Source: Nitrospira sp. CG24A
GTDB lineage: Bacteria > Nitrospirota > Nitrospiria > Nitrospirales > Nitrospiraceae
Length of the DNA: 64,000 bases
Direction: 5' to 3'
NCBI GenBank assembly: GCA_002869925.2
Contig: NEWT02000020.1
Location: forward strand, 1-64,000
In this document: piece after piece, positions 391-51,496 of the stretch
How the letters are laid out: the number at the start of each line of letters is the position of its first letter
How positions within the stretch are numbered: the stretch's first letter is position 1
Made by a program: the position numbers and the translations under genes
Notes under the pieces: model-generated
Database searches by the model: none
What the model saw: only the letters and a program-made list of their open reading frames with translations
Told to the model about the DNA's origin: nothing

Positions 391-1806
391 TTATGCCGCG
401 ATTGAGTTGCGCCCTCGTTGGCGCTGACCAACGATATCTAAGGCTGCGACGCGGTAGGTTTCAGCGAGGGTAGGGAAATTGAAGATGTTCTCGACAAATG
501 AGTCAACGGTGGCCCCATGCTGAAGCGCCATCTGGCCGAGATGAATTAGTTCCGTCGCGCCTTCTCCGATAATCTGAACACCGAGGAGGTATTCGCCTGT
601 TGGATCGGCCACCATCTTCAGTAAGCCGTCGCGAATATCTGAGATCTGGCCGCGGGCGATCTCATTAAATTTTGCCCGGCCAATCATGACCTCTCGATAT
701 CGTTTTAGGCTTGCGGCTTCATCCAGTCCGATACTGGCCATCTCTGGAATGGTATACACTCCGGTCGGAATGATGTCGGCTGATTGCCCCACAGGGAGAC
801 CCAGGGCATGGCATACAGCCCGGCGGCCTTGTTCCATGGCCGAGGAAGCCAGACCGGGGGGACCGATGAGATCGCCGACACCGTAAATGTTGGGAATGGC
901 CGTCTGGCAATGTTCATTGACGGCCAGCGTTCCCTTTTCAGTGACGATCAAGCCGGTCGTGCTGAGATTGAGATCTTCAATATTTGCCTGTCGCCCCAAG
1001 GCCACGAGCATTTTATCGCTTGTGACTACCTGCCCGTCCTGGAGTGTCGTCACGACCTGAGAGATTCCATCCCACCGGACGTCTTTGATGGCCTGTTTCC
1101 CACTGTAGCGGCCGCCGGCTTGCTCAAAGCTTTGCACAAACATGCGAACGAGTTCCGCATCGAAAAATTGAAGGGGGCGATCGGCCCGATCGATGATCGT
1201 GACCTGTACGCCGAGCGCGGCAAAGATTGATGCATATTCCAACGCGATGATTCCCCCGCCCAATACCGTCAGGGAGCGTGGCAAGTAAATCATAGAGAGA
1301 ATTGAATCACTGTCGAGAATGTGTTCATGGTCGATTGGAATGTCGACCGGGGCGCGCGGCCGCGACCCTGTGGCGATGACGATCGTGTCGGCGCTGAGAG
1401 TTTGTTTCATGCCGTCGATCGTGAGCATTTCGATCAGACTATCGGAGCGGAACTGGGCGCGGCCATGGAACAACGTGACGCCATTGCGTGTCAGCTGGTT
1501 CATCATATAGTCGCCATGTGATGTGACGACCTCGTCCAAGCGTTGCATCAGTGTGGCGACCAAGATGTTCGAAGGGATTGCAGCGTTCGGCGTAATTGTA
1601 GATCGTTTCATCCGGTCCAGTTGCAGCGCACTCTCGCGAAGCGTTTTGCTCGGGATCGTTCCCCGGTAGACACAGCCTCCGCCGACACCTGGCTCACGTT
1701 CGATCACCGCAACGTGCTTGCCGCCTTTTGCGCCTTGGATGGCAGCTTTTTGGCCGGCTGGGCCACTTCCGATCACGACAATGTCATAGTGAAGCACTGT
1801 ACTCAT
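391..1806 (-). CDS. sthA: Soluble pyridine nucleotide transhydrogenase (Si-specific)
   Basis: Flavoprotein of 471 residues that moves hydride between NADPH and NAD+ in the cytoplasm and so balances the two nicotinamide pools. The N-terminus has the FAD Rossmann motif GSGPAG (residues 13-18). The redox-site segment GGGCVYRGTIPSK keeps only one cysteine (C45), where dihydrolipoamide and glutathione reductases have CxxxxC; this single-Cys form is the hallmark of SthA. A second Rossmann GGGIIALE motif (about residue 183) binds the nicotinamide cofactor, and the dimerisation domain fills the last 120 residues. The start codon overlaps the stop of the upstream HDOD gene by ATGA, so the two are translationally coupled. 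A mercuric-reductase-like paralogue is the main alternative, but the lone Cys argues against it. Confidence 0.9.
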   Translation of the reverse strand: MSTVLHYDIVVIGSGPAGQKAAIQGAKGGKHVAVIEREPGVGGGCVYRGTIPSKTLRESALQLDRMKRSTITPNAAIPSNILVATLMQRLDEVVTSHGDYMMNQLTRNGVTLFHGRAQFRSDSLIEMLTIDGMKQTLSADTIVIATGSRPRAPVDIPIDHEHILDSDSILSMIYLPRSLTVLGGGIIALEYASIFAALGVQVTIIDRADRPLQFFDAELVRMFVQSFEQAGGRYSGKQAIKDVRWDGISQVVTTLQDGQVVTSDKMLVALGRQANIEDLNLSTTGLIVTEKGTLAVNEHCQTAIPNIYGVGDLIGPPGLASSAMEQGRRAVCHALGLPVGQSADIIPTGVYTIPEMASIGLDEAASLKRYREVMIGRAKFNEIARGQISDIRDGLLKMVADPTGEYLLGVQIIGEGATELIHLGQMALQHGATVDSFVENIFNFPTLAETYRVAALDIVGQRQRGRNSIAA

Positions 1807-2672
1807 TGTGCCATCGTGTCCACAAGACTGAGGACTTTCTCTTTGAGCCCGAGCAACGTGTCCACATCGTTGGGGTAGAGATTGAGATCAGCAAAGACGC
1901 TGTGATCGCGAAGTGTGCTGTCATCATAGGAATCGGGAACGAGTAGGTAGGTGGCCAACCGGTCTGCCAGACAGGTCATCATCGCCTCCTGGCGGTGTGT
2001 AGGTGTGTGTTCATAGGCTCCATAGTAGGCGATGGCCTCAGCCACTTGTGGGGGTAAGGCCCATTCAACCGCAATCACGCTGCCTACGCGAGCATGATAG
2101 CCGCCAAGGAATGCGTGGATGGCATCGGGGCCAAGAGGGATATGTAGGTCTGCGGCAATGGCCGTGACGGTCTTGAGCACGACAGGCTTTCCGACTGCAT
2201 GTAAAAGTCCGCAGAGGTAGGCGCTTTCTACATTATAGCGGCGCATGCGCGCGATCTCTTTCGCGTAGGCTCCGCTGGCCAGCGCGTGCCGCCAGAGCTG
2301 CCGGATGTCCGCTTCATGTCCTGGAATCTTGACGGCCGCGCTCTTCAGAGAGACCGTGACGGCGATCTCCGATAGCTGATTCACGCCGAGCATGGCCACG
2401 GCATGTTGGAGCGAGGCAATCGGAGTCCGAGGCATATAGGCGGGCGAGTTGGCTATCCGTAACACATGTGCCGCCAGGGCTTGGTCTTGGTGGATCAAGG
2501 CAGATAAACGTGCTGCATCCGCAGTGGGATCATGGGCCAGTGCCATGACCCGGCCAGCGACTTGTGGCAGGACAGGAAGCTCGATTCGATCCTTATTGAT
2601 CCGTTCGACTAAGATCTGTTCGATCTGCTCAGGCATTTCCACGGTGTGAGGGGCATGTGTTGCTGTATCCAT
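1803..2672 (-). CDS. HDOD domain signalling protein
   Basis: Cytoplasmic 289-residue protein with an HDOD domain (a relative of HD phosphohydrolases without the full metal site) covering about residues 25-225, seen as the typical LPVLPQVAGRVMALAHDP start, the QDQALAAHVLRIANSP segment and the LLHAVGKPVVL helix. HDOD proteins usually act in signalling or motility rather than as proven enzymes. The only obvious domain is HDOD, with no receiver or GGDEF partner. It is the first gene of a two-gene unit with sthA (4-base overlap). A good sigma-28-like promoter lies about 55 bases upstream at 2726-2753, which would tie it to the late flagellar class. Confidence 0.8.
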   Translation of the reverse strand: MDTATHAPHTVEMPEQIEQILVERINKDRIELPVLPQVAGRVMALAHDPTADAARLSALIHQDQALAAHVLRIANSPAYMPRTPIASLQHAVAMLGVNQLSEIAVTVSLKSAAVKIPGHEADIRQLWRHALASGAYAKEIARMRRYNVESAYLCGLLHAVGKPVVLKTVTAIAADLHIPLGPDAIHAFLGGYHARVGSVIAVEWALPPQVAEAIAYYGAYEHTPTHRQEAMMTCLADRLATYLLVPDSYDDSTLRDHSVFADLNLYPNDVDTLLGLKEKVLSLVDTMAQ

Positions 2673-3221
2673 ATTGGAGTCGATCCCTGAGCCGATTGAT
2701 GTTCGCGGTAGGTCGGTACACTCTCTTGTCGGTAGGATGTCTAGAAAACTTTACCGGTATGGCGCTTCAGCACTTTTGCAGCATTCGGCGATCTATGGTC
2801 CTTGATCATGAGCCAGAAGAGCGCCCATGTTTGACAAATTCCCTCGGTGAGTCGTGGAGCGGAATGGTCAGACGTTTCAGTCCGGTTGCATGCAGCAGGT
2901 CTACGTAAGTCAACGTGCGTCGGTTTCTACGGAGGATTCGACTTAGGCCTGTCTGCATTGCTGACGGGCACGCATAGAGCCGATTGGCATATTGATAATG
3001 ACATGGGAGAATAGTATGGTACCAAAATAATACCGTAAAAGTCGTAGTGTGAGGTGTGTTCCGTGATGACGCTTTTCTCTGTTCCTCTCTCATCCCTTTC
3101 AGGGCCTGTTGTCTCCATTCTCTCTTTGCCCCGATCACGCGTCCCCTCTGCTGTTGACCAGTCGCTAATGACCTGAAGTACTGACTCGATAGATCGAGTT
3201 GTTTGCACTGCTAGGCCATGT
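2673..3221. other. Divergent intergenic region, no gene seen
   Basis: About 550 bases between the divergent HDOD gene and the NarL-type regulator. Apart from the sigma-28-like site near the HDOD start I see no gene. Two minus-strand frames of 106-110 codons (2806-3138, 2927-3247) overlap each other in different frames, lack a protein signature and have no ribosome binding site, so I do not call them. A promoter for the gene at 3222 must lie here, but I could not identify it. Confidence 0.4.
2726..2753 (-). promoter_or_regulatory. Sigma-28-like promoter for the HDOD-sthA unit
   Basis: Read on the minus strand the sequence is TAAAGTTT-N12-ACCGACAA. The -35 box is identical to the enterobacterial FliA consensus TAAAGTTT and the -10 box differs from GCCGATAA at two positions. 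The spacing (12) equals that of the flgM, fliC and HD-GYP sites in this window. The site is 54 bases upstream of the HDOD start codon and points toward it. Confidence 0.6.
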
Positions 3222-6097: not shown

Positions 6098-8278
6098 TTG
6101 CTGAACCTGATTGTGTCTATGAGAAGAAGCGTGACATATACTTTGTTGGCCCTGTATGTGTGTGCGCAGAGTGCTGCCTGGCATGTCGCCTGTGCCGCTG
6201 CGCCGCACTCGTCGGAGGCGACACCTCCAGGCTCCAGCCTTGCACTACCTCCAGAAGGAAGTTCGCGAACAGTCTCTCCACGGATCGCATTGCCTGATGA
6301 TGGGCCCATCTATGATCGAACCATGGAGGGGCCTGGCGTCGCACAATTCCAAGAAGCGGTGAAGGCCTTTACCCGTGGGCAGTATGCGGCGGCTCGCGCA
6401 GGATTTTCAGCGCTTGACACACTTGATTCCTCCAGTCCGCTGATCCCTCCCATGAAGGCGTTCTTAGCCGAACTCACCCTGCTTGAACACCCTTCAGACC
6501 ATGCGCGAGGAGAGGCGGTTACGCTCTATCGCGGCATCATTGGCTCATACCCGAAGAATCCCAATGCCTTCCGGGCACACTGGCGGGTCGGTGACTTGTA
6601 TGTGGACATGGGATGGCTCAGAGACGCCGTGACCGCGTATGAATATGCGCTTTCGCGCGAGCTGCCTCGTCATGATGCGGATCGGACATTGCTCGCATTG
6701 GGCGGCGCACTTGGGGAGCTGGGACGATTGGCAGAAGCTGAGCGGGCATTCGGTGTGGTTCGGGAACGCGCGATTGACGATCGTCTTGTCGTGAGGGCCA
6801 CGTTGGATCAGGCCAACGTCCTGTATGCCCAGCAACGCAAGCGAGAGGCATTACCACTGTACGATTTTTTGTATCGGCGTTGGCCAAATACACTGAAATA
6901 CAATCCTGATGCCTTGCAGCAGTATGGCGATGCCCTTTTTGACAATCAGGAGCTGAAAAGAGGCCGTGAGATCGATTTGCTCCTGTTGAACCTCTTTCCG
7001 TCACACCGACATGCGGGAACGGTTCTCATCCGTCTTGGAGACAGCCATAGCCGACTTGGTCTTCGAACACCGGCAGAGCTTTTTTACAACGTCGCTCAGG
7101 CAGAGTATGGAGATACGCCGGCAGCGGTCGTTGCCCGCATGCGCCTAGCACGGGATGAACAGGAAATTGCGGCATCGGCAGGAGAGAGCTTCCTGCGTAA
7201 AAAGGTGGAAGGCATGATTCGAGGGAACGGTCTATCCTATTTGGAGTCATCGGAAGGCGAAAAGCTGTATAAGGCGATCGCTCTCAATCACCAGGGTGAC
7301 ATGCTTGGCAGCGAGGCGCTCGTTCGATTGGCGGAGCACTATGAATTGCGCGGTGACCCACCACGCGCTATCCAGGTGTATCAAGACGTCACTCGTCGGG
7401 CGGGTGTCGTTGCGCATGATCCCTGGCCGTCTGCGGCGGGGTTCCATCTGGCCGCGATCTTAAAACCCCAGTTGGAAACGGCTATCAAGAACAAGAACGA
7501 TGTTCAGGTGCTCACGCTCTTTCATAGTCACGGGCGGGATCCGGAACAACATTATGCCGGGACACAGACATTATTGGAGGTGGCCGACACGCATCGCCGG
7601 CTTGGTTTTTCACCTGAAGCCGTACGACTCTATCAAGCATTGGTTCGCAATCGGAAGGTGGCTTCGCTCCACGAGGCGGCGCTCGCCGGCTTGGGAGAAA
7701 GTTATTTGGACCAGTCTGACCCTGAGGCCGCCAGGAACGTATTTGAAAGTTTCCGGCTTCACTATCCCAAGAGCGCGCGTTCTACGCGAGTCTCGCGAGA
7801 ATTGACGACGGCATTGTTGGAGCAGGGAGACCGTCAAAGTGCCATCCGTATCATGCGGCACTGGACGCGGGCGCATTCCCATGATCCCGCGCATCGTTGG
7901 ATGTATGCGGCCCTTGCGCGGGCGTTGGCGGACGATCAGAAACACGAGGAGGCCGCCGCGGCATTCGAGGAAGCATTGAACAACAACGCACTCAATAGGC
8001 CTCAGGATCTTCGACGGTATGCCGACCTCCTGTTGCAACTGAACAAGCCTGAACGTGCCACGGATCTGTACCGACAGGTACTGAAGTCCAGACCTGATCC
8101 CATGGAGACTGAGTGGGCGCAGGTACAGATCATGCTCAATTCAGGGGGCAAGAACCGTACAGATGGCCGCCCGACGGGCGAGCGTGCGGACGCGGCATTT
8201 CAAGACCCGTTATTCCAACGTGCTGCTGGCGCCATGCAGATAGGTCTCAAGTCGGCCATTGGGGATACAGGGAGATAA
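6098..8278 (+). CDS. Exported TPR-repeat protein
   Basis: A 726-residue protein with a hydrophobic N-terminal segment (about residues 12-30, ending near ACAAP) that looks like a signal peptide, followed by tetratricopeptide-like helical pairs almost throughout (for example WRVGDLYVDMGWLRDAVTAYEYAL and ALAGLGESYLDQSDPEAARNVFESF). TPR arrays are protein-binding scaffolds, so a periplasmic or inner-membrane scaffold is likely; no enzyme motif is visible. A TTG at 6098 behind GAAGGG fits the ribosome binding rule; the ATG at 6119 gives a more classical signal-peptide N-region (MRRS) and is an alternative. The stop is three bases before the histidine kinase start, so it heads an operon with the kinase and its NtrC-type partner. 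Confidence 0.75.
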   Translation: MLNLIVSMRRSVTYTLLALYVCAQSAAWHVACAAAPHSSEATPPGSSLALPPEGSSRTVSPRIALPDDGPIYDRTMEGPGVAQFQEAVKAFTRGQYAAARAGFSALDTLDSSSPLIPPMKAFLAELTLLEHPSDHARGEAVTLYRGIIGSYPKNPNAFRAHWRVGDLYVDMGWLRDAVTAYEYALSRELPRHDADRTLLALGGALGELGRLAEAERAFGVVRERAIDDRLVVRATLDQANVLYAQQRKREALPLYDFLYRRWPNTLKYNPDALQQYGDALFDNQELKRGREIDLLLLNLFPSHRHAGTVLIRLGDSHSRLGLRTPAELFYNVAQAEYGDTPAAVVARMRLARDEQEIAASAGESFLRKKVEGMIRGNGLSYLESSEGEKLYKAIALNHQGDMLGSEALVRLAEHYELRGDPPRAIQVYQDVTRRAGVVAHDPWPSAAGFHLAAILKPQLETAIKNKNDVQVLTLFHSHGRDPEQHYAGTQTLLEVADTHRRLGFSPEAVRLYQALVRNRKVASLHEAALAGLGESYLDQSDPEAARNVFESFRLHYPKSARSTRVSRELTTALLEQGDRQSAIRIMRHWTRAHSHDPAHRWMYAALARALADDQKHEEAAAAFEEALNNNALNRPQDLRRYADLLLQLNKPERATDLYRQVLKSRPDPMETEWAQVQIMLNSGGKNRTDGRPTGERADAAFQDPLFQRAAGAMQIGLKSAIGDTGR

Positions 8279-8282
8279 CCTC

Positions 8283-9587
8283 ATGAATGCACATCAGGCC
8301 TTAGTAACCACCGATAGCGATTTATTGCACCAGGCGTTTCAGAGTTTCGACGATGCCGCCGTGACCTTGCAACAGTCCTATCAGACGTTGACCACTCGAT
8401 TGGAGCAGCTTGATGTCGAACTGGCTGATCGCAACGAAGCACTTGGAAAAAATTTGCGCGTCAATGAAGAACTGCGTGAGCATTTGACGGCGATTGTCGA
8501 GTCCCTTTCGACGGGTTTACTGGTGATGGATACCGAAGGAATAATTACACGGTGTAACCAAGCGGGTGAGCAACTCCTCGGGCTACCGCGTGAGCAGATT
8601 GTCGGCTGCTCCTTAGTCGCCTGTCTCAAGGACGCCCAACTGGACGGTGATGCGTATCCCCTGACGACGCGCCAGGGCGCGGCCGTGTCGCTCTCCCAAC
8701 GTGCCTTGCACACGAGCGAGGGACGTCATGCCGGACGTGTTCTCCTGATTCAGGATGTGACGGCGGTTCGAGAACTGGAGGATCGGCTGCAGCGTCGTAA
8801 TCGGTTGGCGGCCATGGGTGAGATGGTCGGGCGGATTGCTCACGAAATTCGGAATCCCCTTGGCAGTATTGAACTGTTTGCATCGATGTTGCGCCGTGAT
8901 TTGCACGGCCTTCCTTCACTGCGCGGATACGCTGAACATATCTCATCGTCTGTTCACATGATGAATCGTCTCTTGACCAATCTCTTGCTCTATACCAAAC
9001 CCGATTGCTCGCATGGGGAGTGGCATGAGACGGAAGTACTGATGGTCGATGCATTGACGCTGGCGGCCCATGCTGTTGCACAGACCAAGATCGACATTCG
9101 TCTGGATGTGAATCCTCATGCATCTCGGATGTGGTGCGACGCGGGGCAAATGAAACAAGTGCTCTTGAACGTCATTCTCAACAGTATCCATGCGATGTCA
9201 GGTGGCGGAACGCTGACCCTATCGGCAACCCTCACAGAGGAGCAGACGCCAGGAAGGGCGGCGTTTCGTCTTTCGGTCTCAGATACCGGCGTCGGCATTC
9301 CTGCGGCACAGCGATCAAGAATATTCGATCCATTTTTCACCACACGGGACGAAGGGACGGGGCTCGGGTTGGCCATCGTCCATGCGATTGTTGAAGGGCA
9401 TCGGGGACGGATCGACGTGGAGAGCGTGGAAGGGCGCGGTACGACGTTTACGATGGTGTTCCCGCATCCTTGCGAAGAGAGTCGCACCGGGAGGCGAACA
9501 TTGACTGCGCGTGATTGTGGAGGTGAGGCTGACAACCCCATCATGATCGACGCGCACCACTTTATTGAAGAGGAGACCTCTGCATGA
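8283..9587 (+). CDS. PAS-domain histidine kinase (FleS/FlrB-like)
   Basis: Cytoplasmic kinase of 434 residues without membrane segments. A coiled N-terminus is followed by a PAS domain (about 60-160), a HisKA dimerisation helix with phospho-acceptor H187 in AHEIRNPLGS, and a HATPase domain (about 285-400) with the N box NVILNSI, G1 DTGVGIP and G2 GTGLGLA. Soluble PAS kinases next to an NtrC-type regulator inside flagellar loci are typical of FleS/FlrB, which control hook-basal-body genes. ATG 8283 is preferred to TTG 8259 because AGGGAG lies eight bases before it. The last codons overlap the start of the regulator at 9584 by ATGA, so kinase and regulator are a coupled pair. Confidence 0.85.
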   Translation: MNAHQALVTTDSDLLHQAFQSFDDAAVTLQQSYQTLTTRLEQLDVELADRNEALGKNLRVNEELREHLTAIVESLSTGLLVMDTEGIITRCNQAGEQLLGLPREQIVGCSLVACLKDAQLDGDAYPLTTRQGAAVSLSQRALHTSEGRHAGRVLLIQDVTAVRELEDRLQRRNRLAAMGEMVGRIAHEIRNPLGSIELFASMLRRDLHGLPSLRGYAEHISSSVHMMNRLLTNLLLYTKPDCSHGEWHETEVLMVDALTLAAHAVAQTKIDIRLDVNPHASRMWCDAGQMKQVLLNVILNSIHAMSGGGTLTLSATLTEEQTPGRAAFRLSVSDTGVGIPAAQRSRIFDPFFTTRDEGTGLGLAIVHAIVEGHRGRIDVESVEGRGTTFTMVFPHPCEESRTGRRTLTARDCGGEADNPIMIDAHHFIEEETSA

Positions 9588-32393: not shown

Positions 32394-33143
32394 ATGAGCA
32401 ATTTAGCGACGCAGCGAAGTCGACACACAGACTCCGCATCCGACTCGCACCGCGAACAGATGATCAAAGAGTTTGCCCATGTTGTGAAGGCGATGGCCTA
32501 CCGGCTGACCTACCGTCTCCCGGCCTATATGGATGCAGATGATCTCGTATCGGTCGGCATCATTGGACTGATGGACGCCATGGATAAGTACGATCCAAGC
32601 CGCGAAGCGAAGTTCAAAACCTATGCGGAGTTTCGTATTCGAGGCGCCATGTTGGACGAAATTCGTACGATGGATTGGATTCCTCGGTCGGTTCACGAAC
32701 GCGTCTCATTGTTGCAGCGCACGCATGCGAAGCTGTTGAACAGACTTGGGCGCCCTCCGACAGATGAAGAAATCGCGGCGGAGATGAAGCTGTCTCCGGC
32801 TGAGTTGGATGAGTTCCTTGTGCGATCTCAGGGGGCTGTCCTGGTGAGCTTGGACGATTTCAATCTGCATGAGCCTGACGGTCCCAAAATTCTCGACATG
32901 CTTGCCGACCGGCAGCACCCAGACCCGCTGACGAGCATTCTCAACGATCAGGAGCGGGAGCGCGTGGCTGACGCGATTCAACAATTGCCGGAGAAGGAGC
33001 GGCTCGTGCTGACGCTGTATTACTATGAAGAATTGACAATGAAGGAAATCGGGAGAATTCTCAAAGTCACTGAGTCTCGTGTTTGTCAAATCCATACCAA
33101 GGCAGTTCTTCATCTCAAGGGGACGCTCGAATCGGTGCAATGA
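32394..33143 (+). CDS. fliA: Flagellar sigma factor FliA (sigma-28)
   Basis: RNA polymerase sigma factor of 249 residues for late flagellar genes. Region 2 (LPAYMDADDLVSVGIIGLMDAMDKYDPSREAKFKTYAEFRIRGAMLDEIRTMDWIPRSV), region 3 (LLNRLGRPPTDEEIAAEM), region 4 with helix-turn-helix (LPEKERLVLTLYYYEELTMKEIGRILKVTESRVCQIHTKAVLHL). Six candidate target promoters of one local form were found in this window. Its antagonist FlgM is encoded at 41466. Confidence 0.97.
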   Translation: MSNLATQRSRHTDSASDSHREQMIKEFAHVVKAMAYRLTYRLPAYMDADDLVSVGIIGLMDAMDKYDPSREAKFKTYAEFRIRGAMLDEIRTMDWIPRSVHERVSLLQRTHAKLLNRLGRPPTDEEIAAEMKLSPAELDEFLVRSQGAVLVSLDDFNLHEPDGPKILDMLADRQHPDPLTSILNDQERERVADAIQQLPEKERLVLTLYYYEELTMKEIGRILKVTESRVCQIHTKAVLHLKGTLESVQ

Positions 33144-34826: not shown

Positions 34827-35190
34827 TTTAGCATCTCCCATCATGGTTGTACGCCTATTGTGTGCAAGCAAGTGAACGTTGTCAATACGTTTTTGAAATA
34901 TTCTGAGCGGCTCTCATCCGGCGTCGAGCGCACCGTGACAGACCCTGAGGCAGCGAGGCTTTGTGCGGTGGCGAGTCCGCATGATTCCTGACGAGTTGCC
35001 TCAATGTTAGCCTAACCCGCGTTTCTTGTGCCGCGCCTCTCGTCTCTGGTGTGCGATGAGACAGACAGGTTCACGTGTTCGTTTGAGGCTGCTGATATCG
35101 GTTTCTGTTCGTCCGGAGCGTCTCAAGTCTGCTCTGAAATCAACCGAAATATTCTACGGTGAATCTCTCCTTGATCGGGCATTGCAACCC
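34827..35190. other. Region between antitoxin and GGDEF gene
   Basis: Holds the antitoxin promoter on the minus strand (not resolved; AT-rich stretch near 34855-34905) and the sigma-28-like site for the GGDEF gene at 35123-35150. The open frame of the GGDEF gene extends back to 35026 but the upstream part has no domain and contains the promoter. Confidence 0.4.
35123..35150 (+). promoter_or_regulatory. Sigma-28-like promoter for the GGDEF gene
   Basis: TCAAGTCT-N12-ACCGAAAT. The -35 half is almost the same as at csrA and flgM, with the same spacing. Transcription would begin near 35157, which places the first usable ATG at 35191. Confidence 0.5.
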
Positions 35191-35985
35191 ATGACGTTCA
35201 ATACGATGTTCCTGCCTGCGTATCGTGACAGCTTCATGTCTTCCCTGAGCGGTGGGGTGAAGGGCGGTGAATTTTCTGCCATCCTCATGTCCCCTCTCAT
35301 GGGGATTATAGGGCTCTGTCTCGTCGGTCTTCTCGTTCTTGGAGGACTATGGCTGAGGAGCCGGTTTCTCGATTCCGGACTTCACCGGGCCAGATACACG
35401 GAGACGCTTTCAGAACCATCATCGACCTATGACTATGTGACTGGCCTGCCCACCAGGCGATTGTTCGGGACACTGCTTGAACAGGCGGTAGGCCGCGCCG
35501 CAAAAACTGGGCGATCCCTTGCCGTGCTTGTGGTGGAACTGGAACATTTTCGGATGGTGGCAGAGACTCAGGGCCGAGCGAATGGGAATGTGCTCGTGCG
35601 CGTCCAAGCCGCGAGGGTCAAGGGCGTCGTGCGCTCCACGGAAACGGTTGCGCGGCTAGCGCAGGACCAGTTTGCGCTGATCCTCGACAGTTTCACCTCT
35701 CATGAAGAGGTCGTGGCGATTGTAGACAAACTGCAGGCGACAATTGGGCTTCCTCTCACCTTGGAGGGGCAGGAGTTGTTTCTCACCTGCCATATTGGCG
35801 TCGCGCTGTATCCGCAGGATGCTATGGAGCACGAGAAGTTGATCGAACAGGCTACGCAGGCTGGCACGCGCGCGAAATCCGACGGGCAAGCTGTTCAGTT
35901 TACCTCGCCCATCATCCCTTCAGGTGCGTCCGAGTCAGTGGCTCGGGTATCTGTGCAAACGGAACAAGAAGCTCGTCACTCCTGA
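35191..35985 (+). CDS. Membrane protein with degenerate GGDEF domain
   Basis: A 264-residue protein with one membrane helix (about 33-55, LMGIIGLCLVGLLVLGGLWLRSR) and a C-terminal GGDEF-type domain (about 80-240). The family landmarks DxVTGLPTRRLF and the CHIGVALYPQDA region are present, but the signature loop reads AQDQF (157-161) in place of GG[DE]EF, so diguanylate cyclase activity is unlikely; a structural, GTP-binding or localisation role is more probable. The start at 35191 is chosen from the sigma-28-like promoter just upstream. Position between fliA and flgF suggests a flagellar function. Confidence 0.75.
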   Translation: MTFNTMFLPAYRDSFMSSLSGGVKGGEFSAILMSPLMGIIGLCLVGLLVLGGLWLRSRFLDSGLHRARYTETLSEPSSTYDYVTGLPTRRLFGTLLEQAVGRAAKTGRSLAVLVVELEHFRMVAETQGRANGNVLVRVQAARVKGVVRSTETVARLAQDQFALILDSFTSHEEVVAIVDKLQATIGLPLTLEGQELFLTCHIGVALYPQDAMEHEKLIEQATQAGTRAKSDGQAVQFTSPIIPSGASESVARVSVQTEQEARHS

Positions 35986-41025: not shown

Positions 41026-41415
41026 ATGAATCACGATTTCTCGATGCTCGGCTCGATCGGCAACATGGCTGACGCTCAACTGAGTGTGTTGCCGGCACAA
41101 CCGGCACTCGTCCAGGGTCGGCAGGGGAAGCCAGCCGACCTCAAGGACGCAGCCCATGAATTTGAAGCCTATTTTATCTCTCATCTGTTGAAAGTAATGA
41201 GAGAAACAGTTCCTAAAGGGGCGTTGGAGAACAAGGGAGGGGCGTACTTTTACTCCTTTTATGACCAAGAAATCGGGAGGTTAGCCTCCGAAGCGGGAGG
41301 GATCGGCCTGGCAAAAATGATTCATGAATACACAGAAAGTCATGCTCACTCACTCAAGTTTTCGGAACCGATCGCCGATACAATAGTCGACAAGGATCAT
41401 CGCCCCAGCGGCTAG
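41026..41415 (+). CDS. flgJ: Rod-binding protein FlgJ (N-terminal domain only)
   Basis: A 129-residue protein with the rod-binding domain (LKDAAHEFEAYFISHLLKVMRETVPKGALENKGGAYFYSFYDQEIGRLASEAGGIGLAKMI). The muramidase domain of enterobacterial FlgJ is absent, which is common in other phyla where a separate lytic enzyme is used. It follows flgI by 34 bases. Its 3' end contains the sigma-28-like promoter for flgM. Confidence 0.9.
   Translation: MNHDFSMLGSIGNMADAQLSVLPAQPALVQGRQGKPADLKDAAHEFEAYFISHLLKVMRETVPKGALENKGGAYFYSFYDQEIGRLASEAGGIGLAKMIHEYTESHAHSLKFSEPIADTIVDKDHRPSG
41354..41381 (+). promoter_or_regulatory. Sigma-28-like promoter for flgM
   Basis: TCAAGTTT-N12-GCCGATAC inside the end of flgJ, 84 bases before the flgM start. 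The -35 half is identical to that at csrA. A late promoter for flgM matches its dual expression in other bacteria. Confidence 0.65.
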
Positions 41416-41465: not shown

Positions 41466-41768
41466 ATGCAGATCTCCGGTCATGGTAAGCCAGATTATCT
41501 TGCGAAGATTCTGCTCGGGATTCAGGGAGCTGATGGTGTCAGTGCGAAGCCGCTACCACCACAGGGTGGGCACCAGGATCGGGTGCAGATCTCAGATCGA
41601 GCGAAGGAGATCCAACGGATTAAGGCGTTGGCTGATCAGCCGGATGCTGCACGAGAAGAGCGAATCGCACAGATTAGCCGATCGGTCGACGCCGGCACCT
41701 ATACGGTGTCAGGGAAACATGTTGCCGATGCACTGATCCGTCAGACACTCACCGACGCGGTTCTCTGA
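41466..41768 (+). CDS. flgM: Anti-sigma-28 factor FlgM
   Basis: Protein of 100 residues with the FlgM C-terminal region (DRVQISDRAKEIQRIKALADQPDAAREERIAQISRSVDAGTYTVSGKHVADALI). It binds FliA until the hook is finished and is then exported. Ribosome binding site GAGAGGAG upstream. It is followed by flgN-flgK-flgL as usual. Confidence 0.93.
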   Translation: MQISGHGKPDYLAKILLGIQGADGVSAKPLPPQGGHQDRVQISDRAKEIQRIKALADQPDAAREERIAQISRSVDAGTYTVSGKHVADALIRQTLTDAVL

Positions 41769-44982: not shown

Positions 44983-45009
44983 TCAAGTTTCGTACGCTCA
45001 CGCCGATAT
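44983..45009 (+). promoter_or_regulatory. Sigma-28-like promoter for csrA-fliW
   Basis: TCAAGTTT-N11-GCCGATAT, the closest match in the window to the consensus TAAAGTTT-N11-GCCGATAA. It begins nine bases after the flgL stop and is 38 bases upstream of csrA. Confidence 0.75.
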
Positions 45010-45047
45010 AATCAGGGGAATAACTCTGGAGCGATTGGACTGCACGG

Positions 45048-45284
45048 ATGCTCGTCCTGACACGGAGACGCGGGGAAGGTGTCGTCATTGGTCCGGATAT
45101 CCGGATCGTGGTGCTGGGAATAAAGAATGGACAGGTTCGCCTGGGCATCGAAGCGCCGCGCACGATCGAGGTGCATCGTGATGAGGTCTGCGTCAGGATT
45201 CAAGATGAAAACCAACTTGCAGCACGTTCGCCGGTAGTTCCGTTGGATGTCTTCCAGCGACTGTTACGCACGAAAATGGCTTGA
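45048..45284 (+). CDS. csrA: Carbon storage/flagellin regulator CsrA
   Basis: RNA-binding homodimer of 78 residues: MLVLTRRRGEGVVIGPDIRIVVLGIKNGQVRLGIEAPRTIEVHRDEV is canonical, with R44-like GIEAPRTIEVHR binding edge. It binds ANGGA sites on mRNA leaders; two CAAGGA sites lie in the fliC leader. The C-terminal tail is longer than in gamma-proteobacteria, the form usually found with FliW as antagonist. Confidence 0.97.
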   Translation: MLVLTRRRGEGVVIGPDIRIVVLGIKNGQVRLGIEAPRTIEVHRDEVCVRIQDENQLAARSPVVPLDVFQRLLRTKMA

Positions 45285-45302
45285 GCCTAAGGAGCTGTCG
45301 TT

Positions 45303-45782
45303 ATGAATGTCGCGTCAACTCGCTTTGGTATCATGACTGTCCCTGCTGAGAAGGTGTTGACATTCCCGTCGGGGGTATTGGGATTCCCAGAATGGACCCG
45401 GTACGTGATGCTGGATCATGATACGGATGCCCCATTCAAATGGTTGCACTGTGTGGAAGAAGCGTCCCTTGCGTTTGTGGTCGTCGATCCCTCGGTATTC
45501 CATCAGAATTATCAGATTGAGATTTCGGCAGAGGCTCGCTTGGAAGTGGAGGGGAGTGAGACCGATGAGTTGAGCCTTGTGGTGATCCTCACCATTCCAT
45601 CGGATGATCCCTCCGCCGTGACCGCAAACCTTCGTGGCCCGCTCCTCATGAACCCTCGCACGCGACTCTGCAAGCAACTCGTTCTTGCTGAGGACTATCC
45701 CACTCGATATCCGGTGTTTTCTCCCTCCACACATGCTGAGAGTAGCCTGATTTCTCCCCATGCTGAGGCGGTCCCAGCGTAG
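45303..45782 (+). CDS. fliW: Flagellar assembly factor FliW
   Basis: Protein of 159 residues with the FliW fold (VLTFPSGVLGFPEWTRYVMLDHDTDAPFKWLHCVEEASLAFVVVDPSVFHQNYQIEIS). FliW binds flagellin or CsrA, freeing flagellin translation when flagellin is exported. Two-gene unit with csrA, 18 bases apart, behind a sigma-28-like promoter. Confidence 0.95.
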   Translation: MNVASTRFGIMTVPAEKVLTFPSGVLGFPEWTRYVMLDHDTDAPFKWLHCVEEASLAFVVVDPSVFHQNYQIEISAEARLEVEGSETDELSLVVILTIPSDDPSAVTANLRGPLLMNPRTRLCKQLVLAEDYPTRYPVFSPSTHAESSLISPHAEAVPA

Positions 45783-45872: not shown

Positions 45873-48746
45873 TTATGCTGCGGGTCTTTTGACTTCGCGT
45901 TGGGACCGGCTACGCTTTTCAAGAACTTGAACAAGGCGGAGCACCGCTTTTTCAAGCTGTGTATAGATCATCGGACCTTCAACCAGCGTACCGAGCCGCC
46001 CAAGCGCTTCCAATTGTCCGGCGGATAACACAACCTCCGATGCAGAGAGATTGTTGGCAGTTCCTTTCAGCGCGTGAGCTGCCTGCTCGACGGCTGTTTG
46101 ATCCTTCGAGGCCAAAGCCGTGCGGATTCTTTCCAGCATGGTTTCGTAGCGTTCAAGGAATAGCTCAACCAGATCTTCTAATAGCGCCCTATCCCCTCCG
46201 ATGTTTCGTAACGTTGCCGCCACATCGAAGATCACCGATAGCGCCTCAGTGTCCGTTCCATTCTCACGGCGTTCTGCATCGCTGGAAGAGGTAACCTGTG
46301 GATGTACGGGTAGAGGAATCCATCGCTCGAGGACTCCCTTGAGATCGTCCTTGCGTACGGGCTTCGTGAGGTAGTCGTCCATGCCGGCAGCGAGGCAGCG
46401 TTCTCGATCTCCACGCATGGCATTGGCCGTCAAGGCGACGATCGGAATATGGTGTGTTTTGTAAGAATCGGGCGCAGCAGACTCTTGAGCAGTCGCTTCG
46501 CGCTGGCGAAGGAGCTTGGTCGCCTCGAATCCATCGACGACAGGCATCTGGCAATCCATCAGGACTAAGGCATAGGAGCCCTTGGCTAATGCGGCCAACG
46601 CTTCTTGACCGTTTTCGACCACATCCGATTGATAGCCGAGCTTTTCCAGGATACGAATGGTCAGTTTCTGATTGATGAGATTATCTTCCGCGACCAGAAT
46701 GCGGGGCGCCGACTCTATATCCGCGAAGGTGTGTTGAGTAATGAGCGGCGGTGCAGGCACCGTGGCCACTGCGGGTGTTCCCTCATTCACGACCCCTGAT
46801 AGCCCCAATACGGTTCTCAAGCAATTAGAGAGTTGATCGTGTCGGATGGGTTTGGTGAGATAGGCGACGAACCCGGCTTGGCGTGCCAGCTCCGCGTGCC
46901 CTCGCTGAATGAGTGAGGTGAGGATGACAAGACGGACGAGAGATCCGACAGGATGAGCCTTCATCTCCTTGGCAAATTGTAATCCATCCTTACCCGGCAT
47001 CAACATATCAACGATGGCTACATCGTACGAGAGCCCCTTCTCTGCCTGCTGCTCGAGTAGCGCGATGGCTGAGTCTGCATCCTGGGCTTGATCGGCGACC
47101 ATGCCCCATCCCGTGACCAAATGATGGAGAATGATTCTATTCGATTCATTATCGTCCAGGATCAGGACACGGCGTCCGGTCAACTCGGCCGATGGCATGA
47201 TGGCCAGAGAGCACGTCGCTTGTTTGGCGAAGTGTGCGGTGCACCAGAAGGTACTGCCATGCCCCGGCCGGCTGACGATGCCGACGCTGCCGCCCATTTG
47301 CTCGGTGAGCTGCTTTGAAATCGCGAGCCCTAATCCGGTTCCCCCGTATTTTCGTGAGGTGGAGCTGTCGGCCTGGGTAAACGGTTGGAACAGTCGAGCT
47401 TGTGCCTCTGAGGAGATACCGATTCCGCTATCGGTGATTTCGAATCGGACCACCACCGCATCGACGAGGTCTTTCTCGAGGAAGGCTTGAACCGTCACGT
47501 CGCCCTGTTCGGTAAACTTGATGGCATTGCCGACGAAGTTCGTGAGGATCTGACGGAGTCGCCCCGGATCACCACGTAGACCGGTCGGGACGGCCGCATG
47601 CACCAGACCAGTGATTTCCAGTCCTTTCGTCTGTGCCCGCTCCGCAAATTGGCCCAAGACGTCTTCCACCGTCGTACGGAGGTTGAAGTCAATACATTCC
47701 AATTCCAATTTGCCTGCTTCGATCTTGCCGTATTCAAGGATATCGTTGATCAAGTTGAGTAAGGCTTCGCCGCATTGTCGAATGGTTTCGACATAGGATC
47801 GTTGTTCTTCCGAAGGCTCCGTATCCAGCAATAAGTCCGTCATGCCGATGACTCCATTCATCGGCGTCCGTAACTCGTGGCTCACGGTTGCCAGGAATGA
47901 GGCCTTCACGCGAGCGGCTTCTTGTGCTTCCTGAAGCGCTTTGTCCAATTGACAATTGCTGTTGCGAAGATGCTCGGCGGACCGGCGCAGCTCCGCGTGG
48001 GCTGCCTGGATGTCGGTTGTATCGACGGCATAGCCTCGGACCAGCTCATGCGAGGGAACGGGGCAGAAAATCCATGCAAAACTTGCCTGGGATAAGCAGA
48101 CTTCTTCGCCTCGTATCTCACCTCCCGATTCGAGGCAGCGTCGAACGAGCCGAGAAAGTTCACCAGGACACACCGTAGGGAATCCGCTCGCTGTATAGCC
48201 GAATTGCTGCAGCAACACCGTCATCGCGGGATTGGCATAGACAAGATTCGCATCGGAGTCCAATTCGATAATCGGGGAGGGGCTTTCTTCTGCCACGCGC
48301 GCCAGTCGGTCGTAGTCTTGTTGCAGCTCCTTCTCGCGGGAGAGGTCGCGTATCGTCAAGACCCCGCCGGAATCTCCTTCTGTGTCCAGTGGAACAAAGC
48401 TCCATTCAACCGGAAATGTGTCCTGTGTGGAGTCCCTGAGCATCGCATGCGCTGCCTGTACGGAACGACGATTGAGAAGGGATTCCTGAATGCGCGTCGC
48501 GGTGTCGTGGGTGGGCCCAGGGTGCTGTAACCAAACGTCCCGGAGCGGCTTCGATGAGCAGAAATCAATCGAATGTCCCAGGAGGCGAGCAGCTTCTACG
48601 TTCACAGACACAATCTGAAGCTGACTGTTCAGCCGCACGATACCGATAGGGAGTGTATCTAGTATGGCGTGGTTCAGATCGTTCTGAGAGTGTGTTGGTT
48701 TGGAGGTGCCGGATGCTCCTGCGTGAATCTTTTCAGGCTGTTTCAT
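45873..48746 (-). CDS. Hybrid sensor histidine kinase (PAS-PAS-HK-REC-REC-HPt)
   Basis: A 957-residue cytoplasmic (no membrane helix) multi-step phosphorelay protein. Two PAS domains (about 25-140 and 150-250), HisKA with FLATVSHELRTPMNGVIGMTDLLL (about 290), HATPase (about 400-520, DSGIGISSEA, GTGLGLAISKQL), first receiver (about 535-655, LILDDNESN, VAIVDMLMPGKDG), second receiver (about 690-815, LVAEDNLINQKL, LVLMDCQMPVVDGFEA) and a C-terminal HPt domain with phospho-His in AAHALKGTANNLSA. This BarA/ArcB-like layout would pass phosphate to an unlinked regulator. The start overlaps the HD-GYP stop by one base, so both are one operon behind a sigma-28-like promoter. Confidence 0.9.
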   Translation of the reverse strand: MKQPEKIHAGASGTSKPTHSQNDLNHAILDTLPIGIVRLNSQLQIVSVNVEAARLLGHSIDFCSSKPLRDVWLQHPGPTHDTATRIQESLLNRRSVQAAHAMLRDSTQDTFPVEWSFVPLDTEGDSGGVLTIRDLSREKELQQDYDRLARVAEESPSPIIELDSDANLVYANPAMTVLLQQFGYTASGFPTVCPGELSRLVRRCLESGGEIRGEEVCLSQASFAWIFCPVPSHELVRGYAVDTTDIQAAHAELRRSAEHLRNSNCQLDKALQEAQEAARVKASFLATVSHELRTPMNGVIGMTDLLLDTEPSEEQRSYVETIRQCGEALLNLINDILEYGKIEAGKLELECIDFNLRTTVEDVLGQFAERAQTKGLEITGLVHAAVPTGLRGDPGRLRQILTNFVGNAIKFTEQGDVTVQAFLEKDLVDAVVVRFEITDSGIGISSEAQARLFQPFTQADSSTSRKYGGTGLGLAISKQLTEQMGGSVGIVSRPGHGSTFWCTAHFAKQATCSLAIMPSAELTGRRVLILDDNESNRIILHHLVTGWGMVADQAQDADSAIALLEQQAEKGLSYDVAIVDMLMPGKDGLQFAKEMKAHPVGSLVRLVILTSLIQRGHAELARQAGFVAYLTKPIRHDQLSNCLRTVLGLSGVVNEGTPAVATVPAPPLITQHTFADIESAPRILVAEDNLINQKLTIRILEKLGYQSDVVENGQEALAALAKGSYALVLMDCQMPVVDGFEATKLLRQREATAQESAAPDSYKTHHIPIVALTANAMRGDRERCLAAGMDDYLTKPVRKDDLKGVLERWIPLPVHPQVTSSSDAERRENGTDTEALSVIFDVAATLRNIGGDRALLEDLVELFLERYETMLERIRTALASKDQTAVEQAAHALKGTANNLSASEVVLSAGQLEALGRLGTLVEGPMIYTQLEKAVLRLVQVLEKRSRSQREVKRPAA

Positions 48747-50089
48747 CAGGCCGCCTCTTCCTGAACATCGTCAAGAAACATGGCCACATTCACGCGCTCA
48801 TGCAGGGGATCAAGCACCTTCGTGATGGTCCGCGCCTTTTCTCCTTCTCCGAGGGCTCCAAGGTCGACGCGAACCGGCGGGAGATAGGATTCCCCCTGCG
48901 GCCCAGTGATCACTTTGATGACCGGTTTGAGCCGTTGAGTGGGATTCATCTCCACGACCACAGCCTGTTCTCCGGTGTTCAACAGGACCAAACTGCTGAT
49001 CGGATACACGCCTAACGTGCCGATCATGGTTTGGATCATATTTTTTGCATAGAGTCCTGTATCTCCGAGGTGAAACAAGTGCCGAATCGCATCATGCGGC
49101 AGCATTGCCGGACGTCCGCCACGTCGACTCACCAGGCCATCATAGACATCGACCAGGCTGACCAGTTGCCCCAAGACTGAGAGGTTTTCCCCTCTGAGCT
49201 TGTGCGGGAATCCAGTTCCATTGCTGCACTCATGATGTTCCGCGACAATCTGAACGACGGCGTCACGGTTCTCTTGCGCATCCCGTAAGATCGCCAGCCC
49301 GAGGGCTGGATGCTGCTGCATCATGGCGCGCTCTTCCTCCGTGAGGTCGAGGCTTTTACGATACAGATTGCGTGGCAACCGGACATAGCCGATATCGTGG
49401 AGTAATGCGCCGGCACCGAGTACCTCCAGGTCTTTCTCTGGAACCCCGTAGTCATGCGCGACAATGAGCGAAAGGGTACAGACATCGAGTGTGTGTGAGG
49501 CCAATGTGCGATCGAATCGCTTCATCTTTTGGAGAGAAAGGAGACTGAGCATGGAGGTGCGATTCTCCAGTACGCGCGCGAGTACATTGGTGACCACCGT
49601 TCGCACCGTCTCCGTCTGAGGGACGAGCCCTGTCTCTAACGCTTCAAACATACGTTCCATCGAACAGGTCGCTTCTCTATAGGTTTCCTGGGCGGCTGCG
49701 GCCTGTTCCTGTGCGTGTGACGGCAGTGGCGTGCTTTCCTGTGTGAGAGGCGGCTGTGCGGCTCTGACAGGCTCGCGCTCATGGTTCTGAGGAGTCTTTT
49801 CCGGCGGGGGCGACTCTATTTGATGGTTTGCCTGAGGGGCGGTAACTGTTTCTTGCGTGTGTGCCGGCGGAGCTGTGTCTCCGGGCTGGCCAGGCTCCAG
49901 ATCGTGACCCTGCGCGGGATCGATCTTCACTTCCCTGATCCCATGCTGTCGGAGCAGGTCGATGTCGTGCTGATGACGGATAAGGCGTTTGTGGAGGAGG
50001 AAAGGGGTTCGATACCAGGGCTGGTCCATTCCAACGATGAACATCCCCGGTTTTAGTTGATCGATCGGGATCGTTTTCACCTGTTTCAT
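48746..50089 (-). CDS. HD-GYP domain protein (c-di-GMP phosphodiesterase family)
   Basis: A 447-residue protein: DUF3391 N-terminal domain (about 1-60, IPIDQLKPGMFIVGMDQPWYRTPF), a P/Q/E-rich linker (65-135), and an HD-GYP domain (about 175-360). The catalytic HD is at 231-232, but the usual HDIGK reads HDIGY and the GYP loop reads NGTGFP (290-295), so activity is likely altered though not excluded. A C-terminal small domain follows (365-440). Family members cleave c-di-GMP or sense it. First gene of a pair with the hybrid kinase; sigma-28-like promoter 91 bases upstream. Confidence 0.85.
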   Translation of the reverse strand: MKQVKTIPIDQLKPGMFIVGMDQPWYRTPFLLHKRLIRHQHDIDLLRQHGIREVKIDPAQGHDLEPGQPGDTAPPAHTQETVTAPQANHQIESPPPEKTPQNHEREPVRAAQPPLTQESTPLPSHAQEQAAAAQETYREATCSMERMFEALETGLVPQTETVRTVVTNVLARVLENRTSMLSLLSLQKMKRFDRTLASHTLDVCTLSLIVAHDYGVPEKDLEVLGAGALLHDIGYVRLPRNLYRKSLDLTEEERAMMQQHPALGLAILRDAQENRDAVVQIVAEHHECSNGTGFPHKLRGENLSVLGQLVSLVDVYDGLVSRRGGRPAMLPHDAIRHLFHLGDTGLYAKNMIQTMIGTLGVYPISSLVLLNTGEQAVVVEMNPTQRLKPVIKVITGPQGESYLPPVRVDLGALGEGEKARTITKVLDPLHERVNVAMFLDDVQEEAA

Positions 50090-50179: not shown

Positions 50180-50207
50180 TTATCGGGATATATCGGGCTG
50201 AACTTGA
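50180..50207 (-). promoter_or_regulatory. Sigma-28-like promoter for the HD-GYP/hybrid-kinase unit
   Basis: Minus-strand reading TCAAGTTC-N12-CCCGATAA: -10 box differs from GCCGATAA by one base; -35 by two. It is 91 bases upstream of the HD-GYP start and points to it. Confidence 0.65.
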
Positions 50208-50342
50208 CATGAGCGAACCAAATTCCGCCCCAACGTGTTGTATCGGCTTCGGCGCTTTTCGTTCTTTTCCCTCAAGATTCTTCCTTCGATGCCGATAGAG
50301 GCCATCAGAGCACGTTGTTGTTCGATGGTACGGACTCAGGGG

Positions 50343-50421: not shown

Positions 50422-50762
50422 ATGCATAAACGGATATCCATCGATCAACTGAAAGTCGGCATGAAGGTCGAGAAGCTCGATCGTTCCTGGCTGGCTACCC
50501 CCTTCTTGCGGCATCGCTTCACGATTACGCCTCCAGAACAACTAAGGGGGAGGCGGCGATCGTGAAACAATTCAATCACGAGGCTCCAATTAGGCCTCTG
50601 GTCGTGCTGGTCACGGACGAAGCAGGCCGTCATAGACCCACTCCTCTAGACCTCGATCTCGCGGCGCAGTTCTGCCAACCGAAACAGAAAATTGCCTCGA
50701 TTCTTGACCCAATAAACGTGGGGATTAATCCTTCTCTCTATCTTGATAAGGAAGCGACGTGA
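50422..50762 (+). pseudogene. Relic of a second HD-GYP gene with internal deletion
   Basis: Codons from ATG 50422 read MHKRISIDQLKVGMKVEKLDRSWLATPFLRHRF, clearly the DUF3391 start of an HD-GYP protein (compare residues 1-37 of the intact gene at 48746). After about 38 codons the frame jumps: from about 50544 another frame reads KGEAAIVKQFNHEAPIRPLVVLVTDE...PTPLDLDL...KIASILDPINVGINPSLYL, which matches the last 75 residues of the intact protein (373-440). About 335 codons, including the whole HD-GYP catalytic domain, are missing. The C-terminal frame can be read from GTG 50562 and its stop overlaps the ycgR-like ATG (TGATG), so this was once the first gene of that operon. Confidence 0.8.
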
Positions 50763-51496
50763 TGGAATCAGAGCATGCCCCCTCATTTCCGTCGATTCTC
50801 GTGGTCGGATTGCCGCTTCAGCTGGTGATCGGGTCCGATCACGACAAAGTGAACTGTGGATCCACCTTAATGGGCTGGAAGGCGCAGGCGTGGCTGATTT
50901 GCGAATGGCCGTTCCATTTCGGGCAAGCGGTTCCGTGCGAAACGGGAACCCTCTGTCTCGTCCGCTCGATGGTGGCGGGTAAGCTCGTCGCATACCAAAG
51001 CGAAGTCCGTATGACACAGACCTCTCCACTTCCTCTGCTGTATCTCGCATTTCCCCGGAGGGTCGAGGAAATCCATCTCCGTAAGGAAACGCGCGTGGCA
51101 AGCAATGAGCCGTTACTCCTGCTGCAGGGTCCCCATGGAGGAACGACGCTCGCTCTATCGAATGGGTCTGTTCCTATGGGCGGATTGATACAGGACCTCA
51201 GCGCTTCTGGCTGCCGCATTATTGTCCAGCGGCCGCGTGCCGACGTGACGTTGGGCGCCACGGTCTATTTAGAGTTTGAACTGATCGGGATTGGCCACAT
51301 CGCCCATCTCGCCGGCACAATCAAGAATATTGCAGAGCGTGACAGCGCCCTCTCACTCGGGGTCGAATTCCGATTTAATGGGAAAGAGGCGATCGAATAC
51401 CGGGGGTGGGGAGGGAGCGTCCAAAGGGCCATTGAGTATTCCGTGATGCAGCGCCAAACCGAGTGGGGATTCTTGACGCCGGCGTCAGAACCATGA
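50762..51496 (+). CDS. YcgR-like flagellar brake protein (PilZ domain)
   Basis: Cytoplasmic protein of 244 residues with an N-terminal YcgR-type beta domain (1-100) and a C-terminal PilZ domain (about 104-225). Both c-di-GMP contacts are present: RKETR (107-111) and DLSASG (145-150). Such proteins slow or bias the motor when c-di-GMP is high, by binding the switch proteins. The start overlaps the stop of the HD-GYP relic (TGATG). The relic and the neighbouring HD-GYP gene show this is a c-di-GMP control spot. Confidence 0.9.
   Translation: MESEHAPSFPSILVVGLPLQLVIGSDHDKVNCGSTLMGWKAQAWLICEWPFHFGQAVPCETGTLCLVRSMVAGKLVAYQSEVRMTQTSPLPLLYLAFPRRVEEIHLRKETRVASNEPLLLLQGPHGGTTLALSNGSVPMGGLIQDLSASGCRIIVQRPRADVTLGATVYLEFELIGIGHIAHLAGTIKNIAERDSALSLGVEFRFNGKEAIEYRGWGGSVQRAIEYSVMQRQTEWGFLTPASEP

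Follow-up and report, generated by a model that had tools for sequence, protein, structure and literature searches.

A candidate FliA promoter before an HDOD-transhydrogenase gene pair, possibly of the late flagellar class, in Nitrospira and its family

As major nitrite oxidisers, Nitrospira make their living from a reaction that yields little energy. Genes outside the flagellar structure can belong to the regulon of the flagellar sigma factor FliA (sigma-28), and in Escherichia coli yhjH and ycgR are FliA targets. Here, we examined the first 64,000 nucleotides of an 82-kb contig (NEWT02000020.1) from the 3.36-Mb genome of Nitrospira sp. CG24A, a stretch that we call the window. A FliA-type promoter site lies before two of its genes, one for an HDOD-domain signalling protein and the other, sthA, for a soluble NAD(P)+ transhydrogenase. 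The best explanation, to which we give a probability of roughly two in three, is that this site is a FliA promoter that drives the two genes as an operon of the late flagellar class.

The aer promoter of E. coli, TAAAGATA-n11-GCCGACAT, depends on sigma-28 and is activated by CRP, with activities of 223 units when both CRP and FliA are present, 53 without CRP and 12 without FliA (PMC2859248, Table 1). Aer senses the redox or energy state, according to the title of a reference cited there. In Pseudomonas putida, bifA is partly controlled by FliA and also has a putative sigma-70 start (PMC5300878), and mutants of the HDOD proteins Cj0248, GsmR and SadB change motility (cited in PMC11004494). When the flagellar master gene flhC was deleted in a ptsG strain of E. 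coli, NADPH/NADP+ rose from 1.73 to 2.08, and the net transhydrogenase flux, which had produced NADPH, now consumed it; in the ptsG+ wild type, the same deletion gave only a slight change (PMC8005581). These shifts in ratio and flux indicate that flagellar expression alters NADPH demand. Among Nitrospira, three NAD(P)+ transhydrogenases are reported for N. moscoviensis, one of which was detected in the proteome (PMC8407350), and flagella genes are present in strain ND1 and absent from N. japonica NJ1, with transhydrogenase unmentioned in the available part of that paper (PMC5767232). At the level of search listings, with most subscription papers outside their scope, literature searches on HDOD together with transhydrogenase, on sthA or soluble transhydrogenase together with FliA, flagella or motility, and on Nitrospira together with FliA or transhydrogenase returned no report of this link.

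The promoter-like site and the two genes behind it

The original prediction was that an exact FliA -35 box with correct spacing stands before the HDOD-sthA pair. The box was confirmed, TAAAGTTT at 2753-2746 on the minus strand, and 53 bases lie between the end of its -10 partner (2726) and the HDOD start codon (ATG at 2672). The site and the genes behind it are as follows.

2746 to 2753, minus strand: -35 box TAAAGTTT, FliA (sigma-28) type, exact; matrix rank 6 in 80 kb, with related boxes in relatives
2726 to 2733, minus strand: -10 box ACCGACAA, with C in place of the T usual at position 6 in flagellar FliA promoters
2711 to 2725, minus strand: GAGAGTGTACCGACC, directly 3' of the -10 box; its first 11 letters follow a genus-conserved block with the alignment consensus GAGAnTGTACC
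1803 to 2672, minus strand: HDOD-domain signalling protein, 289 aa (PF08668, 2.6e-47)
391 to 1806, minus strand: sthA, Si-specific (soluble) NAD(P)+ transhydrogenase, 471 aa (NF003585 over cut-off; best PDB match 9n4y)

The boxes are separated by the 12-base spacer TCTAGACATCCT. The flgM, csrA and fliC sites of the genus have a spacing of 11 or 12, and since flgM and fliC use 12, the predicted correct spacing holds for this organism, but not by the E. coli standard of 11. The -10 box ACCGACAA agrees with the E. coli consensus GCCGATAA in six of eight letters; measured against CCGATA, the sites before HDOD genes retain CCGA and the following A and nearly always deviate at position 6. Because the -10 box is off-consensus, a sequence search with the exact pattern TAAAGTTT-N10-13-GCCGATAA gave no match. 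The conserved segment GAGAGTGTACCGACC is perhaps a transcription start zone or a regulator contact.

The predicted gene identities were borne out. The first protein scores 161.3 bits with the Pfam HDOD model, against a gathering score of 22.9, and is 95% identical to the HDOD protein of Nitrospira isolate RSF6. The sthA product reaches 541.5 bits against the NCBIfam equivalog cut-off of 465 for Si-specific NAD(P)+ transhydrogenase and stays below the cut-off of each of the models for lipoamide dehydrogenase, mercuric reductase (MerA) and glutathione reductase. Its closest solved structure in a PDB comparison is a soluble pyridine nucleotide transhydrogenase (9n4y), and its translation contains GGGCVYRGTIPSK, a CxxxxT motif in which the second redox cysteine is replaced by T, a replacement that we take to be diagnostic of SthA. 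The HDOD stop and the sthA start overlap by 4 bases (ATGA, 1803-1806), and the proposed two-gene operon forms part of the best explanation. Since the window starts at contig base 1, the DNA beyond sthA is not visible.

At the position where the HD metal-binding doublet is presumably located, all seven aligned HDOD homologues read LLHAVGK or LLHTVGK. Judging from LLHAVGK, the protein probably has no metal site, and because this motif replaces the expected doublet, an adaptor is more likely than an enzyme. On this motif, we rejected a metal-dependent HD phosphohydrolase or HD-GYP protein. HDOD relatives were found in the PDB, with Cj0248 a weak match (E 0.0047).

Conservation and rank of the site

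Of the 32 genomes of the window's genus, 24 have an HDOD orthologue; these same genomes have sthA, which follows HDOD immediately in every one of the 24 loci. Conservation in relatives, which had been named beforehand as a check, was found throughout the genus: a related element precedes HDOD in 22 of the 22 loci with upstream DNA, where the upstream regions have otherwise diverged (the table excludes G017 and G024, in which HDOD is cut short). The majority consensus of the 22 is TTAAGGTTCC ... CATTCTACCGACAAGAGAnTGTACC. Three loci are exceptional, with a weak -35 box (G019), a site 298 nt upstream (G018) and a site only 25 nt from the start (G007); the G007 and G021 sites read CCGATAA. In G024, on contig C136 at about 7182-9577, the HDOD match covers residues 124-288 only and a match to FlhA starts some 320 bases away, as expected of a rearrangement or misassembly.

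The same holds in the rest of the family, where 102 genomes of other genera have HDOD and 100 upstream regions could be used (in G064 and G151 the match begins inside the gene). By our judgement, the site is present in 98 of these. The commonest -35 boxes are TAAACTTT (41 sites), TAAGGTTT (25) and TCAACTTT (14), and the spacing is 12 in 91 sites and 11 in 7, over a scan range of 11-13. In G154 the site reads TAAAGTTT-N12-GCCGATAA and matches both E. coli boxes exactly, and in G039 a doubtful TCAAGTTT-N11-GCCGAAGA is seen. A matrix built from 39 flagellar FliA sites of these bacteria, with all HDOD sites left out, exceeds the 99% shuffle level in 96 of the 100 upstream regions on the gene's strand and in none on the opposite strand, and its best match lies 30-65 nt from the HDOD start in 99. 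When 64 named loci of 3.3-12.9 kb were scanned (63 after L264, which has no upstream DNA, was dropped), the HDOD site ranked first in 55.

Column statistics were taken from the 91 rows with spacing 12, G048 and G039 being left out. Letters 1 (T), 3 (A) and 7 (T) of the -35 box are invariant, letter 4 is A or G and letter 5 is C or G. Columns within the site carry up to 2.0 bits, a figure boosted at the scored columns by how the sites were picked, while most flanking columns stay below 0.6 bits. The unscored columns 16, 19 and 29, outside the FliA boxes, hold additional conserved letters (A, A and G; 1.6-1.8 bits) in the other genera. Beyond the family, a Tectomicrobia locus (L261) has HDOD-sthA with TCAAGTTC-N12-GCCGATGC, in a genome with flagellin; the pair also occurs in a Planctomycetota locus (L263), where the genome again has flagellin but the locus has no good site (rank 5).

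Within the contig, the HDOD site scores 20.8 bits with the flagellar matrix and ranks sixth when every position of 80 kb is scored on both strands. Above it stand the sites of csrA, flgM and fliC, all three of which belong to the training set, a site at contig position 70700 and one 90 bases before an HD-GYP-like gene; below it come 20.0, 18.9 and then values of at most 15.9. Counted by matches to the E. coli consensus, it shares first place with the flgM and csrA sites over both strands of the 80 kb. The flgM, csrA and fliC promoters of the genus mostly have a T[C/A/T]AAGT-like box, a spacing of 11 or 12 and then [G/A/T]CCGATA, and similar sites occur in the flagellar regions of four genomes of other genera (G046, G118, G154 and G140). 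In some flagellar loci of the genus (e.g., L103, L110 and L113), the scan gave no convincing FliA site.

Association with FliA and competing explanations

The proposed reader of the site and its antagonist are encoded in the same window.

32394 to 33143, plus strand: fliA, the sigma factor proposed as reader of the HDOD site (TIGR02479 and NF005413 over cut-off)
41466 to 41768, plus strand: flgM, anti-sigma factor with its own FliA site at 41354 (TIGR03824 over cut-off)

HDOD and FliA co-occur. Among 156 family genomes that are at least 80% complete, HDOD is present in 122 and FliA in 119; 113 have both, 6 FliA only, 9 HDOD only and 28 neither (Fisher p 1.7e-17). With bacterial genera as the units, the four counts become, in the same order, 8, 4, 1 and 8 (p 0.024). 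Within the window's own genus, HDOD is found in 22 of the 23 flagellin-bearing genomes and in 2 of the 9 that lack flagellin; on an RpoD tree (31 rows, G021 missing), these 9, seven of them without HDOD, fall into two clades plus a genome standing alone.

From the site, its conservation and this co-occurrence, sthA is probably a late-class flagellar gene. FlgM would restrain FliA until the hook-basal body is complete, and freed FliA would then transcribe HDOD-sthA along with flagellin, csrA and c-di-GMP (cyclic di-GMP) genes. A cell starting to swim would thus also make a transhydrogenase to move reducing power between the NADPH and NADH pools, which would let it adjust to flagella-linked NADPH demand, and the co-produced HDOD adaptor would signal to motility or metabolism. 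The conservation of the site in nearly all relatives with the pair suggests that the cells turn on swimming and redox balance jointly. The off-consensus -10 box would make for a weak FliA promoter in need of an activator, so that a second signal would gate the operon, and after a loss of FliA another factor may keep the same element in use.

Several observations weigh against this explanation. Because the genomes share ancestry, they do not count as independent cases. FliA occurs without HDOD in six genomes; two of these, G041 and G042, are also without FlhA, which the remaining four possess. In FliA-positive G048, the stretch examined contains no site. Whereas T stands at -10 position 6 in 37 of the 39 flagellar sites, a count somewhat inflated by picking those sites by a score that favoured T, it does so in only 4 of 120 HDOD sites (G007, G021, G147 and G154). 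Five genomes (G025, G030, G039, G053 and G107) keep HDOD without FliA, FlhA or flagellin, and the sites of G025, G030, G053 and G107 are intact, scoring 14.3-15.9 like those of comparable flagellate relatives; the doubtful G039 site scores 14.9. Between G025 and G030, none of 16 box positions has changed, as opposed to 3 of 12 in the spacer and 27% divergence of the local flanks. Unchanged boxes have a probability of 0.006 under drift alone if FliA was lost before the two split, an order that is favoured but not proven by the RpoD tree, where these sisters on the HDOD-sthA tree sit inside a clade of four flagellin-less genomes. Overlooked genes are possible in these assemblies, least so in G025 (99% complete in about 10 contigs; G030 90%, G053 94% and G107 99%). 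The persistence of HDOD in these five genomes, with an intact site in four, suggests that the site may serve an activator or a second sigma factor as well. The late flagellar class thus stands as the best reading, on conservation and co-occurrence with FliA, but the four intact FliA-less sites and the deviating -10 box speak against exclusive control by FliA.

The other four HDOD-only genomes (G008, G024, G070 and G146) have FlhA and flagellin, so the absence of FliA there may be an assembly gap. In G008, a close relative of the window's genome that is 83% complete, no FliA was found and the FlhA match on contig C1 (203547-204155) covers positions 1-200 only, with an in-frame TAA; its flagella may be decaying.

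The alternative that survives best, which we still consider unlikely, is that the element is a promoter of a different sigma factor, or of FliA plus another, before an operon for redox or lifestyle functions whose loss tends to accompany that of flagella. The intact sites in G025, G030, G053 and G107, the consistent non-T at position 6, the four genera with FliA and no HDOD, and the conserved letters of columns 16, 19 and 29 outside the FliA consensus would all fit such a factor. It fits less well with the co-occurrence of HDOD and FliA, the rank of the site among real FliA sites, the T at position 6 in G007, G021, G147 and G154, and the use of GCCGACA by sigma-28 (PMC2859248). A single target per genome would also be odd: model R1, built from the 22 genus sites and recovering these, as expected, at E 4.3e-5 or better, gave no further match better than E 0.10 in 32 genomes, with 150 first-look candidates scored in each.

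Considerably less probable still is that the pair stays with flagella by linkage and ancestry only and that the site is an unrelated regulatory element, such as a transcription-factor site. Ancestry is indeed shared among the genomes counted, and the claim that the pair borders the flagellar locus is true of nine genomes of the window's genus, in which fliA is about 30 kb away, but of few others. Among the 95 genomes of other genera with HDOD and FliA, the two lie within 40 kb in 6 and at 163 kb-3.8 Mb on one contig in 18, G046 among them; in the remaining 71 they are on different contigs and no distance can be read. Linkage does not explain the association where the distance is known to be large, and as the sole cause it is rejected for those 18 genomes, the 71 not being judgeable. 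In N. defluvii (L250), the five genes tested around the pair are non-flagellar and the site is present all the same. The two-box geometry is also of the sigma-factor type, and in 99 of the 100 upstream regions the element lies 30-65 nt ahead of the start. As for a chance match without function, which a lone consensus match in 64 kb taken by itself could be, we reject it on the conservation in 22/22 and 98/100 loci despite diverged flanks and give it almost no weight.

Returning to the FliA promoter, we offer one broader proposal tentatively, as less likely than not: in the Nitrospiraceae, a dedicated off-consensus FliA promoter would place the NADPH/NADH exchange enzyme and an HDOD adaptor under two controls, late flagellar expression and a second input, and that input alone would sustain the operon once flagella are lost.

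Other sites in the region and relation to known systems

Some of the remaining FliA-type sites touch on what else the late class may contain. A strong site of 27.1 bits precedes csrA-fliW (window 44983-45782), so the translational regulator csrA is itself probably of the late class. Sites at 50207 (minus strand) and 50272 (plus strand) lie between an HD-GYP-like gene (48746-50089, minus strand) and a YcgR/PilZ gene (50759-51496, plus strand), the latter site more than 260 bases before the first listed open reading frame. With these sites (50180-50298), the two genes are apparently a c-di-GMP module of the late flagellar class, which we take to resemble yhjH-ycgR of E. coli. At 35123 on the plus strand, a FliA-like TCAAGTCT-N12-ACCGAAAT (18.9 bits) falls within the listed 5' end of a GGDEF reading frame (35026-35985), whose real start may be further downstream. 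The contig's top FliA site, at 70700 (L003:10700), is followed about 2.4 kb downstream by a MotB-like gene (L003:13098-13985).

If the FliA promoter is real, a tie that joins NAD(P)H exchange to the late flagellar class across the family would couple motility to central redox balance by a new route. The FliA-less genomes that keep the site would then be a natural experiment in which a regulon member outlives the loss of its sigma factor.

Comparison with aer suggests that the HDOD-sthA promoter is a weak, activator-dependent FliA promoter, since aer demonstrates that FliA can use CCGACA in an activator-reliant promoter. Both have a FliA-type promoter with C at position 6 of the -10 box (GCCGACAT in aer), and both serve a gene outside the flagellar structural set. 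They differ in that aer encodes a taxis receptor and has a spacing of 11 with CRP at -49.5, whereas the spacing is 12 here and the operon encodes a signalling protein and an enzyme. Like bifA and yhjH/ycgR, HDOD-sthA would place non-structural signalling genes in the FliA class, but those genes act on c-di-GMP, while the HDOD protein has no indicated enzymatic activity and sthA encodes a metabolic enzyme. The HDOD domain is shared with Cj0248, GsmR and SadB, of which Cj0248 is only a weak match in sequence. The window's sthA belongs to the same sequence family as SthA/UdhA (9n4y; NF003585), over the curated cut-off, and is set apart from SthA/UdhA as otherwise described by its flagellar-type promoter and its HDOD partner.

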